DNA of 64,000 nt, from positions 682,001-746,000 of the forward strand of contig NZ_FQWT01000002.1 in the NCBI RefSeq assembly GCF_900129755.1, in the 5' to 3' direction. How positions within the stretch are numbered: position 1 is the first letter of the stretch; every line of letters begins with the position of its first letter. Below the pieces are notes generated by a model that was given only the letters and a program-made list of their open reading frames with translations, ran no database searches and was not told where the DNA came from. The DNA is from Chryseobacterium oranimense. Lineage in GTDB: Bacteria; Bacteroidota; Bacteroidia; Flavobacteriales; Weeksellaceae. Both the position numbers and the translations under genes were made by a program. Below, piece by piece: positions 35,009 to 43,227 of the stretch.

Positions 35009-36412
35009 TTAAAATAAAATTTTATCCTCTTTTCTCAATTCCTCAAGGTATTTAATTTTATCATCCCTGTAAAATAAATTCATGGTCTCGAAAGGAATCA
35101 TTTTTAAATCTTTATTGACAATGTGAACACAAGATTTTTTGATAGCGCGCACATCAAAATCGTGGGCGTCCATAAAATTCATGATGATAATTCTAAAGAG
35201 ATTGTCGTAGTCTAAATCCGGAGCTGAAACTTCAGGTAGACAGCACAGTAACTGGTTGACTTTAGGCTGAACTTTATCTACAGAAATCCCGGTGCTGAAA
35301 ATATCTAAAAGCTGCATTTGCAATCCCGTATCCTGTTCGTAAACAATAGTATTTCTTGTTTCATTATTCAGCAAATCGGCAGGGTTAATATATCTTGTAA
35401 GAGGAATGGTTTCACCTTCGAGTTTCAAAATATAGCCCATTGCCAAAGCATCCGGATTACACGGAACGGGGATAATATCATCGGCGTTCAGAAGTGGAAA
35501 CTGATTTAAAATTTCCTGCCTTACTTCTGTCAAAGTAATTTTCTCATGGGCAGAATCCTCCCTGTTTCTTCCTGCTACTTCAACCGGCTGGAAGGTAATC
35601 CCGCGGACGCACTTCTGTTTTAAAGCAAAATCAATTAATTTTCCAATCTCGTCGATGTTTTTTCCTTTCTGAAGAACGATAACCAAAGTTGTGGAAAGAT
35701 TTAATTCATTTAATTTTTCCAGGGCTTTCATGCGGACATCCGTTAAATCTTTTCCTCTGAAATCTTGCAAAACTTCCGGTTTAAAAGAATCAAACTGAAG
35801 GTAAATTTCAAATTCCGGGGCATAAGTTGCCAGTTTCTCCGCAAAACCGGGATCATTGGCAATACGGATCCCGTTGGTATTGAGCATCAGATGTTTAATC
35901 GGTTTCGATTTGGCGATATCCATAATCTTAAAAAACTCGGGATGAATTGTCGGCTCACCACCACTGATCTGTACAACATCCGGCTCGCCCTCGTTTTTAA
36001 CGATAGTATCAAACATGGCTTCAATCTGCTCCAAAGTTCTGTGACTTCCATAATGCGGCGAAGACATCGCATAACAGGTAGGACAGGTCAAATTACAGCG
36101 GTCAGTAACTTCCACAATAGAAAGGCAGCTGTGCTGCTCATGGTCTACGCACAAACCACAATCGTACGGACAGCCATATTCCACATCAGTTCCGAAATGA
36201 ACGGGCATTTCAGAGGCTTTATTGTAGTTTCTGATATTTTTGTAATACTGAACATCTGAAGCAATCATGGTCTTAAAAAAGCCGTGATCAGGACATCTTT
36301 TTGTCATAAAAACTGCTTCATCCTCAATAATGATCTTCGCTCCTACCCTTTTCAGGCATTCCGGGCAAAGACTTATGGTATAGTCGTAATAGGTATAATT
36401 TCTTACCGGCAT
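35009..36412 (-). CDS. Radical SAM enzyme, tetraether-lipid-synthase (Tes/MJ0619)-like
   Basis: The 467-residue protein has a rubredoxin-like start (CPEC at 16-19, CPDHG at 40-44) and an extra cluster site CPYDCGLC (81-88) with Cys96. The radical SAM motif CNLTCPTC (Cys106, 110, 113) and SGGEPTIHPEF follow. This order matches the MJ0619/Tes family, whose archaeal member joins lipid chains by C-C bonds. The reaction in this bacterium is unknown. The ATG at 36412 is used because the family N-terminus starts there. It follows a small membrane protein gene (11-base gap) and an Lgt-like gene, suggesting work on a membrane lipid or lipoprotein. Confidence 0.87.
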   Translation of the reverse strand: MPVRNYTYYDYTISLCPECLKRVGAKIIIEDEAVFMTKRCPDHGFFKTMIASDVQYYKNIRNYNKASEMPVHFGTDVEYGCPYDCGLCVDHEQHSCLSIVEVTDRCNLTCPTCYAMSSPHYGSHRTLEQIEAMFDTIVKNEGEPDVVQISGGEPTIHPEFFKIMDIAKSKPIKHLMLNTNGIRIANDPGFAEKLATYAPEFEIYLQFDSFKPEVLQDFRGKDLTDVRMKALEKLNELNLSTTLVIVLQKGKNIDEIGKLIDFALKQKCVRGITFQPVEVAGRNREDSAHEKITLTEVRQEILNQFPLLNADDIIPVPCNPDALAMGYILKLEGETIPLTRYINPADLLNNETRNTIVYEQDTGLQMQLLDIFSTGISVDKVQPKVNQLLCCLPEVSAPDLDYDNLFRIIIMNFMDAHDFDVRAIKKSCVHIVNKDLKMIPFETMNLFYRDDKIKYLEELRKEDKILF

Positions 36413-36423
36413 AATTTCAATTT

Positions 36424-36657
36424 TTACATTCCTCCACAAACAAAACCGCTGATCAGGCCACAAATCAACAAAGAAATAAGCATCGTCTGCCAAAACTGTT
36501 TTTTTGTGAATTTCCTGTCGTTATTCCACTCGTAAATAACTTTTGCGATCAGGGTTATAACCAGTGAAACAACTAAGGCAATTACTATGATTACTCCTAT
36601 AATCATGACGACCAGGCCGCCGAGATTACCAACTTCCAGAAGTGTCAGCATTTTCAT
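36424..36657 (-). CDS. Small two-helix membrane protein in the radical SAM operon
   Basis: The 77-residue protein has two hydrophobic segments (about 13-40 and 57-75) separated by a charged loop (KVIYEWNNDRKFTKKQFW). I do not recognise it. It overlaps the upstream Lgt-like gene by 4 bases (ATGA) and ends 11 bases before the radical SAM gene, so the three are almost certainly one transcript. It may be a membrane partner of the radical SAM enzyme. Confidence 0.75.
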   Translation of the reverse strand: MKMLTLLEVGNLGGLVVMIIGVIIVIALVVSLVITLIAKVIYEWNNDRKFTKKQFWQTMLISLLICGLISGFVCGGM

Positions 36658-37397
36658 AATTTAAATTTTATGGTGTTTTTAATTTTATAAATGTAGTAAA
36701 TAATCACTGAAAGAGATACCAGCTGAATCGTTCCCAAATTTCCGATGATCCCGACTTTAGGTTTGATAAAATCCAAAAAGAACCTGAATGTAAAATAACT
36801 CAGCATAAATACCTGAAAAATAAAGCCTGAAGGATATTTTCTTTTGCTCTCAATCCTTTTTAAAAAGATCCATAGAATAATCAGAAAAGCAATTTCATAA
36901 AGGGCTACCGGATGCCTCAGATATTCATCCCCAAGATGCATTCCGAATACTGATGTTGTGGGCAAACCATAAGTTTCTTCGTGAACTCCCGTAAGAAAAC
37001 AGCCGATTCTGCCAATGATTATGGCTAATATCAAAGGGTAAACAATCAAATCCCCGGTACTTTCTTTGTGCCCTACTATTTTTTTGGCCAGTTCAACCCC
37101 GATAAGCCCAAATGCCAACCCGCCAACAATGGTGTTATTGGTCCAAAATCTTTTAAAGCTGAAATGTTCAAATAAGGCATAAGGATCTTCAAGATTACCG
37201 ATAAGCTTTGAACCAATTAAAGCTCCTGCCGTTGCCCCGATGAGTACCGCTGCGGAAGTATTGAAAGACAGTTTTTCGGTTGATTTCCTTTTTAAATAAA
37301 AATAAAACCGCATCCCCAGAAAAATACCCAGGGTTTCAAATACAGGATGTGCAAGAACTGTTTTACCGAAAATCTGAAAAGTAACAGGGAAATCCAT
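36654..37397 (-). CDS. Lgt-like (prolipoprotein diacylglyceryl transferase family) membrane protein
   Basis: The 247-residue protein has about seven membrane segments and Lgt signatures: GRIGCFLTG (Arg130), YLRHPVALYE (161-168) and a late FRFFLDF (Arg205). Two Lgt positions have changed: the HGGL histidine (E. coli His103) is Val in IVGGL (91-94), and the Asn of GR(L/I)GNF (E. coli Asn146) is Cys133. It may therefore not be the housekeeping Lgt. It heads a three-gene operon with a small membrane protein and a Tes-like radical SAM enzyme. Its substrate may be a phospholipid such as phosphatidylglycerol, but this is inference. Confidence 0.82.
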   Translation of the reverse strand: MDFPVTFQIFGKTVLAHPVFETLGIFLGMRFYFYLKRKSTEKLSFNTSAAVLIGATAGALIGSKLIGNLEDPYALFEHFSFKRFWTNNTIVGGLAFGLIGVELAKKIVGHKESTGDLIVYPLILAIIIGRIGCFLTGVHEETYGLPTTSVFGMHLGDEYLRHPVALYEIAFLIILWIFLKRIESKRKYPSGFIFQVFMLSYFTFRFFLDFIKPKVGIIGNLGTIQLVSLSVIIYYIYKIKNTIKFKL

Positions 37398-41733: not shown

Positions 41734-43227
41734 TTATAAGAATTTATTTTCTACCAATATCCAGAGTCTCTGGGCATATTCATCTACTTTACTCCACTTT
41801 CTTTCGTAATAAAGATCGCTGAGATATTCTTTTGCTTCTTCCAGATTTCTGAATCCGTTCAGGCGGGCCACCGTTTCGTTAAGGTCCGACTGGCTTCCCC
41901 CAAACAGCATTTTTGAAAAAGCAATCCTGTCATTCAGATCCAGTCTGAACTCCGGTTTTACCTTATCAGCTTCCATAAAATTGGTAGGAATGTTAGTTTT
42001 AAGGATGCTTCCTGCGTCTTCTTTAGCTTCGGGTGTCGGTTTTTCCTTAGGAACCTCTCTTTCAAGAGGATCATCATCAAAAAGGCTCTGTACCACCTTA
42101 AGGCCTTTGATATTGGCCAGCTTTATTTTTTTCTCCCGCTGATAAGCATCCAGATCTTCGAAGCTTTCATCAGAAGCATGTTTTTCTTTTTCCGAAAGAG
42201 GTTTGTCTATTTCAACGATTTTTCTTCTGTCGTACACTTCTGCGAGGATCGTCTCTTCTTTTTCTTCAGAAGGAACGTCATGTTTTATTTCACTCAGAAT
42301 TCCCTCCACATTGGATGTTTCCGTTAGCATTTCTCCCTGGTCAATGCCAGCGCTGTTCACCATGAACTGTTCTTCATTTTCTTCAATCAGAATTTCATCT
42401 TCCAGCATTTCCGGATCGAATATGCTTGGAATTCTTTCTGTCTGTTCTCTGGCTCTATCTGCAGCTTCTTTGTGCGTCGTTTCTTCTTTCAGCAGGTCAT
42501 CTGAAGCAATTGTTTCATGTGAAACCATTTCTTCATCTTCGTCAATTTCATTGAGTTGATTGTTAAAAACCGCCTCTTCTTCTGTCAGTTCATTAATAAA
42601 TAAATCTTCATTCAGATCTTCATCATTATCAGGCTTCGCATCTGCAAGAACTCTTTCTTCATCAATAAAGCTGAACACTTTTTCACTGGCGTTGAAAGTT
42701 TCGTTTTCATCAATTTCATTCAGCTGGTTATTGAAAACAGCTTCTTCTTCCGTCATTTCGTTGTGAGGAGTCTTTTCATGAGCAACCGCCTCCTGCCCGT
42801 TAATTTCCTCTGCAAAACTCACAATGTTTTCGTGGAATTCATTTTCTACGATCTCATCAAGCTGATGATTGAATTTTTCCTCTTCATCTGCTGATGTCTC
42901 TGAATAATTTTCATTCCCGTTTTCATCAATTTCATTAAACTCATTATTGAAAATGGCCTCTTCTTCCGTTACTTCATGATGAGACTCGTGTACATCATCC
43001 GAATTTAAAGAAACATATTGATTCTCTGTATTCTGTTGTGGATGATCTGTAATAAAATACTCAATATTTTTTTCCAGAAGCCTTAAAAAAGAGATCCGGT
43101 TCGCAAGCTCATCCACAAGATCCTGCTTGGAAAGTAATTCGTCTACATTGTTTATTTTCTCCAAAATATCAATGATATTTTTGGATTCAAAAAAAATTTT
43201 TTCCTTTAAATCTTGGATGTTTTGCAT
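41734..43227 (-). CDS. Acidic repeat protein of unknown function
   Basis: The 497-residue protein has a helical N-terminal part (1-60), a long Glu/Asp-rich disordered centre, and a folded, less acidic C-terminal domain (about 420-497, DRIAFSKMLFGGSQSDLNETVARLNG; approximate). The centre contains four copies of a 15-16-residue unit. TEEEAVFNNQLNEIDE is exact at 159-174 and 215-230, with variants at 87-102 and 114-128. No signal peptide or membrane span is seen, so it is probably cytosolic. It heads the rsmI operon. I do not recognise it; the repeats suggest binding sites for a partner. Confidence 0.75.
   Translation of the reverse strand: MQNIQDLKEKIFFESKNIIDILEKINNVDELLSKQDLVDELANRISFLRLLEKNIEYFITDHPQQNTENQYVSLNSDDVHESHHEVTEEEAIFNNEFNEIDENGNENYSETSADEEEKFNHQLDEIVENEFHENIVSFAEEINGQEAVAHEKTPHNEMTEEEAVFNNQLNEIDENETFNASEKVFSFIDEERVLADAKPDNDEDLNEDLFINELTEEEAVFNNQLNEIDEDEEMVSHETIASDDLLKEETTHKEAADRAREQTERIPSIFDPEMLEDEILIEENEEQFMVNSAGIDQGEMLTETSNVEGILSEIKHDVPSEEKEETILAEVYDRRKIVEIDKPLSEKEKHASDESFEDLDAYQREKKIKLANIKGLKVVQSLFDDDPLEREVPKEKPTPEAKEDAGSILKTNIPTNFMEADKVKPEFRLDLNDRIAFSKMLFGGSQSDLNETVARLNGFRNLEEAKEYLSDLYYERKWSKVDEYAQRLWILVENKFL

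Follow-up and report, generated by a model that had tools for sequence, protein, structure and literature searches.

A three-part cassette of an Lgt paralogue, a small membrane protein with a C-terminal cysteine and a Tes-like radical SAM protein in Bacteroidota

Three genes at a Chryseobacterium oranimense locus

We analysed a 64,000-nucleotide stretch of the Chryseobacterium oranimense genome (positions 682,001 to 746,000 of contig NZ_FQWT01000002.1; this whole stretch is called the window) and found that three minus-strand genes at 35009-37397 form a three-part module that is inherited together in Bacteroidota. They encode a membrane protein related to the prolipoprotein diacylglyceryl transferase Lgt, a small membrane protein with a conserved cysteine near its end, and a radical S-adenosylmethionine (SAM) protein related to the tetraether synthase Tes. 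The arrangement given in the original prediction was confirmed, with all three genes on one strand, an ATGA overlap joining the first two and 11 bases (36423-36413) separating the small-protein gene from the radical SAM gene (Table 1). The mechanical open reading frame (ORF) of the radical SAM gene opens at TTG 36493. Its start was taken as ATG 36412, whose matching codon is the mechanical ORF start in 11 of the 19 relatives read (loci L006-L014, L016 and L020).

Table 1. Coordinates of the cassette in the window and of related cassettes on Actinomycetota plasmids (lengths in amino acids, aa)
Feature	Coordinates	Strand	Basis
Lgt-like integral membrane protein, 247 aa	36654..37397	-	Pfam PF01790, 81.5 bits; Foldseek match to 5azb
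ATGA overlap, Lgt-like stop and small-protein start	36654..36657	-	ORF reading
Small membrane protein, 77 aa, proposed substrate	36424..36657	-	Conserved Cys74; no Pfam or NCBIfam family above cut-off
Last hydrophobic helix of the small protein, basic loop to Cys	36439..36486	-	Boundaries approximate
Cys74 codon of the small protein	36436..36438	-	Position counted by hand
Tes/TrsS-like radical SAM protein, 467 aa	35009..36412	-	Pfam, NCBIfam and fold match to Tes 7tom
Plasmid cassette, Mycobacterium branderi	L206:3352-6545
Plasmid cassette, Mycobacterium avium	L208:2222-5542
Plasmid cassette, Nonomuraea gerenzanensis	L207:4115-6826

The cassette is inherited as a unit

Conservation was assessed in a collection scan, from which the best 80 of 585 confirmed candidates, all Bacteroidota, were kept as named loci. 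These 80 are not independent, as 17 are from Chryseobacterium or Epilithonimonas and 5 from Sphingobacterium. Two genome samples were also used, one of 247 Bacteroidota genomes from across the phylum and one of 118 genomes belonging to the same genus as the window. The radical SAM proteins of the named Chryseobacterium loci shared 94-99 % identity with the window's.

An Lgt-like gene lay upstream of the radical SAM gene on the same strand in 78 of the 80 named loci, although it was split over two frames in L093 and L105 and partial in L101. The two loci lacking it were L059, at the edge of a contig, and L100 (genome G251), where the gene is on another contig. Among the 78, the two reading frames overlapped in 38 and were separated by 0-59 bases in 10, by 60-599 in 25 and by more in 5, with a maximum of 3.9 kb (L079).

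Both genes also occurred in the same genomes. Across the phylum, the radical SAM protein was found at E <=1.3e-99 in 20 of the 247 genomes, with two weaker matches (G066 and G096), whilst the Lgt-like alignment search found E <=5.6e-76 in 21, again with two weaker matches. All 20 genomes with the radical SAM gene carried the Lgt-like gene, compared with 1 of the 227 others (Fisher p 1.6e-28, uncorrected for kinship). Within the genus, the radical SAM gene was present in 86 of the 118 genomes, the Lgt-like gene in the same 86, and neither in the remaining 32 (lists compared by eye). In G034 and G251 the two genes lie apart but in one genome. The original prediction depended on the genes being kept together in other genomes, and both linkage and co-occurrence were borne out in the named loci, across the phylum and within the genus.

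No further component was evident. In an all-against-all comparison of flanking ORFs, no other family of at least 110 aa recurred near the cassette in more than 10 of 60 locus groups, counting Chryseobacterium/Epilithonimonas once and Sphingobacterium once. A wider operon was thus rejected for the named loci. In trees of both the radical SAM and the Lgt-like protein (quick method, 46 rows), the Chryseobacterium rows joined those of Sphingobacterium, a member of another family, with a Shimodaira-Hasegawa-like approximate likelihood ratio test (SH-aLRT) support of 99. That the same grouping appears in both trees suggests that the cassette moved between families as a unit.

Close relatives often keep their gene neighbours, and three unrelated housekeeping genes could in principle stay together through ordinary synteny. 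We consider this explanation barely credible here. Surroundings differ between groups whilst the cassette stays constant, and the gene order has itself been rearranged, with the small gene 5' of the radical SAM gene in 23 loci (Chryseobacterium, Epilithonimonas, Sphingobacterium and Apibacter) and 3' of it in 50. Joint gain and loss in the genus already contradicts this explanation, and both larger genes join Chryseobacterium with Sphingobacterium across a family boundary. A chance neighbourhood is likewise ruled out by the linkage in 78 of the 80 loci, the changing flanks and the joint presence or absence in the genus.

In the window itself, the flanking genes look unrelated to the cassette. 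Downstream lie surE and an acetyltransferase gene facing the cassette, and upstream lies a diverging gene of the IMP dehydrogenase/GMP reductase family. Further along, at 41734-43227 on the minus strand, a 497-aa acidic protein carries repeats of the type LTEEEAVFNNQLNEIDE and matches no Pfam family at E 1e-5.

The small membrane protein keeps a single cysteine

The original prediction had noted a two-helix membrane protein beside the two larger genes. A membrane protein is indeed present, but treating the locus as an Lgt/radical SAM pair passed over its third conserved part. A small-ORF script recovered 105 candidate membrane ORFs from the 80 named loci, and the 96 with a Cys within the last 25 residues were kept. 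Most of the nine set aside look like false frames, though they include the second small ORF of L053, whose motif sits 30 residues from the end. Among the 96 themselves, at least two (the final ones of L059 and L067) also resemble false frames. At least one linked small ORF with a Cys tail was present in 73 of the 80 loci, with one in 55, two in 13 and three in 5.

Among 36 aligned small proteins the Cys was the sole invariant column, and the same was true of 58 C-terminal segments; the rows had been picked for having a Cys, so the telling point is that nothing besides it is fixed. The sequence surrounding the Cys is variable. Gly or Ser stands at position -4 in 92 of the 96 proteins, and in 92 of the 96 the Cys is followed by a tail of 3-10 residues. 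The fuller motif ([GS] at -4, a hydrophobic helix before, Cys in the last 25 residues) was present in 90 of the 105 cassette candidates and in 9 of 204 control ORFs from the same loci.

Charge is distributed unevenly about the last helix. Lys and Arg residues average 3.45 in the stretch before the helix and 0.15 after the Cys, and the loop exceeds the tail in 94 of the 96 proteins. Basic loops stay cytoplasmic according to the positive-inside rule. By this rule, the contrast between a basic loop and a nearly uncharged tail predicts that the Cys lies on the outer side of the inner membrane.

A small-protein model built from genomes bearing the radical SAM gene matched 14 of the 247 Bacteroidota genomes at E 1e-5, all of them within the 20 that have the radical SAM gene. 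In the window's own genome, model A3 of the small protein found no convincing second copy; the known copy scored 1.9e-14 and the next match E 0.105. In one of 32 loci of the genus (L176, about 1252-1487) the small gene is frameshifted, either truly or through a sequencing error, and the Lgt-like and radical SAM genes were both found there.

The Lgt-like protein is a third paralogue of its genome

The Lgt-like protein belongs to the Lgt fold family, its match to the Pfam LGT family lying well above the cut-off of 24.9 bits. It did not reach the cut-off of the narrower model TIGR00544 (36.5 versus 118.9 bits), nor that of NF000778. Its structural model (predicted local distance difference test score, pLDDT, 91.3) had a single Foldseek match at E <=0.001, namely E. 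coli Lgt 5azb (E 9e-07, template modelling score 0.65).

Residue correspondences with Lgt were counted by hand from alignments, and conservation was assessed over 47 sequences. R143, Y235 and R239 of Lgt correspond to R130, Y201 and R205, which are invariant in the 47 sequences. Substitutions at R143 and R239 inactivate E. coli Lgt (PMC4728403). E202 of Lgt and the signature glycines are kept as well, and alignment of the stretches around Lgt E151 and Y26 is uncertain.

Two further LGT-family genes lie elsewhere in the window's genome (G000:C10 and G000:C9; L001 and L002). They score higher, at 200.9 and 172.1 bits, making the window gene a third paralogue. A possible fourth gene (C7) was dropped, as the frame there is unlike an LGT protein.

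The conserved residues of the two membrane proteins bear on a redox explanation, in which the small protein's Cys acts as a redox or metal ligand. The small protein would then either hold the radical SAM enzyme to the membrane or supply it with electrons, with the Lgt-like protein as the scaffold for docking. Electrons are needed by the radical SAM enzyme, which has retained a rubredoxin-type site, and Cys133 of the Lgt-like protein is invariant. A Cys at the predicted outer face would, however, be badly placed to feed electrons to a cytoplasmic enzyme, and a scaffold sits poorly with the retention of both catalytic arginines of Lgt. We regard a redox role as very unlikely.

The radical SAM protein has the fold of Tes

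Pfam recognised two domains in the radical SAM protein, Radical_SAM (98.6 bits) and HMPTM zinc ribbon (72.9 bits). Three N-terminal metal sites are complete: a rubredoxin-type site (C16, C19, C40 and H43), an N-terminal cluster (C81, C85 and C88) and the radical SAM cluster (C106, C110 and C113). Candidate ligands of a C-terminal cluster are C318, C390/C391, C428 and M411. The full Tes cysteine layout had been predicted, and its motifs CPEC, CPDHG, CPYDCGLC and CNLTCPTC are all there, but the C-terminal cluster departs from it. In a correspondence made by hand, Met439 of Tes is kept as M411 and C428 is also kept, whereas one Tes Cys is Glu442 and C318 and C390/C391 are extra. Tyr459 of Tes, strictly conserved in 1,000 archaeal homologues, is Ile431 in the window protein. 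Both Y459F and Y459L variants of Tes remain active (PMC9433317).

The protein fell short of the NCBIfam cut-offs for Tes (NF045702; 275.9 versus 450 bits) and for TrsS (NF045646; 321.8 bits over residues 12-452 versus 490), the latter being its best NCBIfam match by score. The Tes cut-off was also missed by the relatives L107, L108, L021, L022, L206 and L207, and only L109 (G066) among the scanned proteins passed it (493.8 bits). Given these scores, and the lack of a His103 equivalent in the Lgt-like protein, neither protein was filed as a member of the Tes, TrsS or functional Lgt family.

The fold is that of Tes over most of the length. Profile alignment to Tes covered nearly the whole length (E 1.8e-94), and the structural model (pLDDT 82.6) matched 7tom with a VIA-align Z of 46.5 over 417 residues at a root-mean-square deviation of 2.4. 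The next structure other than Tes was that of the peptide enzyme SuiB, at Z 20.1. Residues 356-397 are poorly modelled; they fall within Tes profile positions 311-453, over which Tes is 34 residues longer (hand count). Pfam found no SPASM or peptide-recognition domain above cut-off. A role in anti-phage defence was considered and rejected, as PADLOC gave only weak viperin matches, which we read as kinship within the radical SAM superfamily.

The small protein diverges with the Lgt-like protein

The three parts were compared for divergence across 31 loci of the genus. The small protein diverged in step with the Lgt-like one (r 0.91; partial r 0.92 controlling for the radical SAM protein), whereas its correlation with the radical SAM protein was weak (r 0.25; partial r -0.34 controlling for the Lgt-like protein). 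Four loci (L006, L182, L192 and L200) carry a second version of the Lgt-like and small proteins, the former 62-66 % and the latter 27-35 % identical to the window's, whilst the radical SAM protein remains 95-97 % identical. In L033, which is apparently from the same genome as L006, the Lgt-like protein is 63 and 65 % and the small protein 42 and 40 % identical to those of two Sphingobacterium loci, compared with 62 and 35 % to those of the window. Within the genus as a whole the radical SAM protein stays 92-99 % identical as the small protein drifts. A near-constant enzyme beside a drifting partner is easier to reconcile with a substrate that is a lipid or a minimal motif than with one that is the whole peptide.

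This pattern bears on two alternatives. In the first, the small protein is a membrane-bound precursor resembling that of a ribosomally synthesised and post-translationally modified peptide (RiPP); the radical SAM enzyme makes a thioether or C-C bond at the Cys or its Gly-rich surroundings, and the role of the Lgt-like protein is confined to binding or presenting the helix, or it attaches a second group. Short, fast-varying genes in one to three tandem copies beside the radical SAM gene, as found in 73 of the 80 named loci, with one fixed Cys motif, are the layout of a RiPP system, and the arrangement resembles that of known precursor families. Tandem precursors of other RiPPs have been described in Chryseobacterium (PMC8939145). 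The closest structure is nevertheless by far that of a lipid enzyme, with SuiB a distant second, and the Cys is predicted at the outer face. Pfam detected no peptide-recognition domain, although not every RiPP enzyme is known to have one. The radical SAM sequence also fails to follow the divergence of the small protein once the Lgt-like protein is allowed for, and we consider a RiPP pathway unlikely.

In the second alternative, which we find doubtful, the Lgt-like and Tes-like proteins make a free membrane-spanning or glycerol-extended lipid, and the small protein serves as an accessory subunit or as an anchor. In support, Tes links lipid tails (PMC9433317, PMC8941075). Its bacterial homologues have been proposed to make branched glycerol dialkyl glycerol tetraethers (brGDGTs), and iso-branched tails are similar to the ends of phytanyl chains (PMC8941075). 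Some loci lack a small protein nearby, and the pair of larger genes also occurs with a different small membrane protein. An accessory protein, however, need not keep one Cys amid drift or occur in tandem copies. Nor would this alternative predict that the small protein covaries with the Lgt-like protein and not with the radical SAM protein.

Exceptions and distant relatives

The script had found no small gene in seven named loci, so the whole genomes were searched and the matches read. L053 has the linked small protein described above with its Cys 30 residues from the end. In L099 the cassette continues on another contig, which carries two copies of the small protein, and in G251 (L100) and G248 (L064) copies lie on other contigs. 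The copy in G248, a Flavobacteriaceae metagenome-assembled genome, lies directly 3' of another LGT-family gene (L164:375-1731; by eye). G034, with its Lgt-like gene on a separate contig, gave a weak match (E 0.038), readable as a protein of 90 aa whose Cys is close to the end. As to the two weaker radical SAM matches, the G066 protein, which passes the Tes cut-off, has no Lgt-like match at 1e-25 in its genome, whereas that of G096 adjoins a weak Lgt-like match.

The motif had been found without the divergent cases (G121, G156 and the plasmids), which were inspected by eye. The radical SAM proteins of G121 and G156 are 38 and 37 % identical to the window's, and the gene order there is radical SAM, ICMT-family, DUF4395, Lgt-like and a small membrane protein ending in a helix with a Cys. 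At L107:8485-12087 and L108:3435-6941 the radical SAM and Lgt-like genes are separated by genes for an ICMT-family methyltransferase and a DUF4395 protein, and the C-terminus of the latter is rich in Cys.

On plasmids of Mycobacterium branderi and M. avium, an Lgt-family gene is followed by genes for two small membrane proteins with Cys tails and then by a radical SAM gene. The last helix of these small proteins ends in the Cys, followed by 10-11 residues, and the radical SAM proteins are 26.7 and 29.8 % identical to the window's. The two annotated plasmid records name the larger genes only as 'prolipoprotein diacylglyceryl transferase family protein' and 'radical SAM protein', and give the label 'hypothetical protein' to the small ones. 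A Persicobacter plasmid carries the Bacteroidota form of the cassette.

In Nonomuraea (L207:6395-6826) and G096 (L110, near 8277) a different small protein lies 3' of the radical SAM gene, with an S(K/R)C-like stretch followed by DTRLVLAYL and no Cys at its end. For two relatives of the radical SAM protein, L204 on a Mycolicibacterium plasmid and L205 on a haloarchaeal one (35.7 and 31.2 % identical), the neighbouring genes encode methyltransferases and not Lgt. One scan of viral contigs returned no relative.

A proposed route of lipidation followed by radical chemistry

The broad reading put forward at the outset, a lipid or lipoprotein modification system, remains the best one, but it concerned the pair alone and left out the small membrane protein, which is the likeliest substrate. 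We tentatively favour, with a confidence that stops a little short of even, a route in which the Lgt paralogue lipidates the Cys of the small protein and the radical SAM enzyme then acts. On insertion the basic loop of the small protein would stay in the cytoplasm, and the last helix would cross outward and end with the Cys at the external face of the inner membrane. This geometry would be that of a lipoprotein signal peptide, but set at the C-terminal end and lacking a classical lipobox. The Lgt paralogue would transfer a glyceryl lipid, diacylglyceryl by analogy, to the Cys thiol. The product would stay a short, lipid-capped membrane hairpin, probably uncut by the ordinary lipoprotein signal peptidase; the mostly bulky residue before the Cys makes such cleavage improbable. 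Both reactions and the sequence in which they run are inferred, as are the donor lipid and the lack of cleavage.

The Tes-like enzyme would then work on the invariant part of this product, most likely its acyl chains, and could abstract a hydrogen from the end of a chain and then link that end by a C-C bond to an adjacent chain or lipid, which is the chain joining that the original prediction offered as a guess. Iso-branched fatty acids are abundant in Bacteroidota. Their ends have been called structurally identical to archaeal tails (PMC8941075), and ester phospholipids can be held in the Tes active site (PMC9433317). In an extended form of the route, the Tes-like enzyme, working from the cytoplasmic side, would join the outer-leaflet lipid tails of the capped hairpin to an inner-leaflet lipid and so give a protein-anchored membrane-spanning lipid. 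We consider this extension quite improbable.

A number of observations weigh against lipidation followed by radical chemistry. The radical SAM enzyme would be cytoplasmic, whereas the predicted topology places the Cys on the opposite face of the membrane. The region of that enzyme which matches the second lipid pocket of Tes is shorter and, at 356-397, poorly modelled. The classical lipobox [LVI][ASTVIG][GAS]C was present in none of the 96 small proteins. The Lgt-like protein in turn has an invariant Cys133 in place of Lgt Asn146, and Asp/Glu and Lys stand at Lgt E243 and R246. The R246K variant of E. coli Lgt did not complement (PMC4728403); a Lys is also found at this position in the other two LGT proteins of the window's genome. 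No conserved His stands for Lgt H103 in the 47 sequences, the only nearly invariant His residues being H17 and H162. H103, part of the HGGL motif, is essential in E. coli Lgt and has been proposed to form part of the lipobox site (PMC4728403). The lack of an equivalent makes a changed acceptor plausible for the Lgt-like protein and a changed reaction possible.

The statistics also have their limits. Invariance of the Cys in the 36- and 58-row alignments is partly by construction. The small-protein model misses 6 of the 20 radical SAM genomes at E 1e-5, and at E 0.05 it matches 60 of the 247 genomes, mostly as weak fragments, and is unspecific. The covariation rests largely on the four loci with the second version of the Lgt-like and small proteins: when they are left out, r falls to 0.72 and partial r to 0.65, and the Lgt-like protein also follows the radical SAM protein (r 0.76). 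As the Lgt-like and small genes adjoin, a single recombination tract could have swapped both with no functional match between them, in which case the breakpoint would lie within or close to the short gap that precedes the radical SAM gene.

Finally, the three parts are not always found together. G017 (L141) has the Lgt-like gene without the radical SAM gene, and G013 (L157) has a small protein with a Cys tail without either larger gene at the thresholds used. Whole-genome searches gave no acceptable small protein for L054, L089 (at a contig end) or L101. The small membrane protein seen in Nonomuraea and G096 lacks the terminal Cys motif, indicating that the pairing of Lgt-like and radical SAM genes is wider than the Cys-tail protein.

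Should lipidation followed by radical chemistry be correct, the Lgt fold would follow a second acceptor rule, annotation would have missed a class of lipidated mini-proteins, and radical lipid chemistry would possibly take place on a protein. The membrane-spanning form would further imply a covalent, bilayer-spanning lipoprotein in mesophilic Bacteroidota and on Actinomycetota plasmids. Bacterial tetraether synthase homologues are described as having no confirmed activity in the available text of PMC11868695, and that of PMC9433317 states that bacteria with Tes homologues are often not known to make the lipid. The cassette ties one branch of these homologues to a dedicated Lgt paralogue and a candidate substrate, with a single testable residue and in culturable bacteria.

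Comparison with known systems

The component families are known. No description of the cassette as a system was found in the full-text literature under CC0, CC BY and CC BY-SA licences in PubMed Central, and a subscription paper or preprint may exist. From their available text, PMC8939145 and PMC7641849 concern other systems. A bacterial parallel in chemistry is Mss, which acts with Ger in the brGDGT pathway; it joins the ends of fatty acids and has been modelled with the catalytic architecture of Tes (PMC11868695, PMC13274423). Mss is set apart from Tes homologues by its description, and the available text of these two papers mentions no Lgt-like or Cys-tail partner.

Compared with E. coli Lgt (PDB 5AZB), the Lgt-like protein differs in its candidate acceptor, which is not a lipobox. 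The small protein resembles a lipoprotein signal peptide in its basic loop, hydrophobic helix and Cys at the outer end, but the Cys stands at the C-terminal end of a hairpin, with only the short tail after it.

The radical SAM protein scores best with TrsS among NCBIfam models, yet below the cut-off. It resembles Tes, or GDGT-MAS (MJ0619; NF045702; PDB 7TOL and 7TOM), in its fold, its three N-terminal metal sites and its equivalent of Met439, and the spacing of its rubredoxin-type site, CX2CX20CX2H, is that given for Tes (PMC9433317). It differs in being shorter between the barrel and the C-terminal cluster, in the region where amphipathic helices of Tes form the second lipid pocket. Unlike Tes, it is encoded together with an Lgt-like protein and small proteins that end in a conserved Cys.

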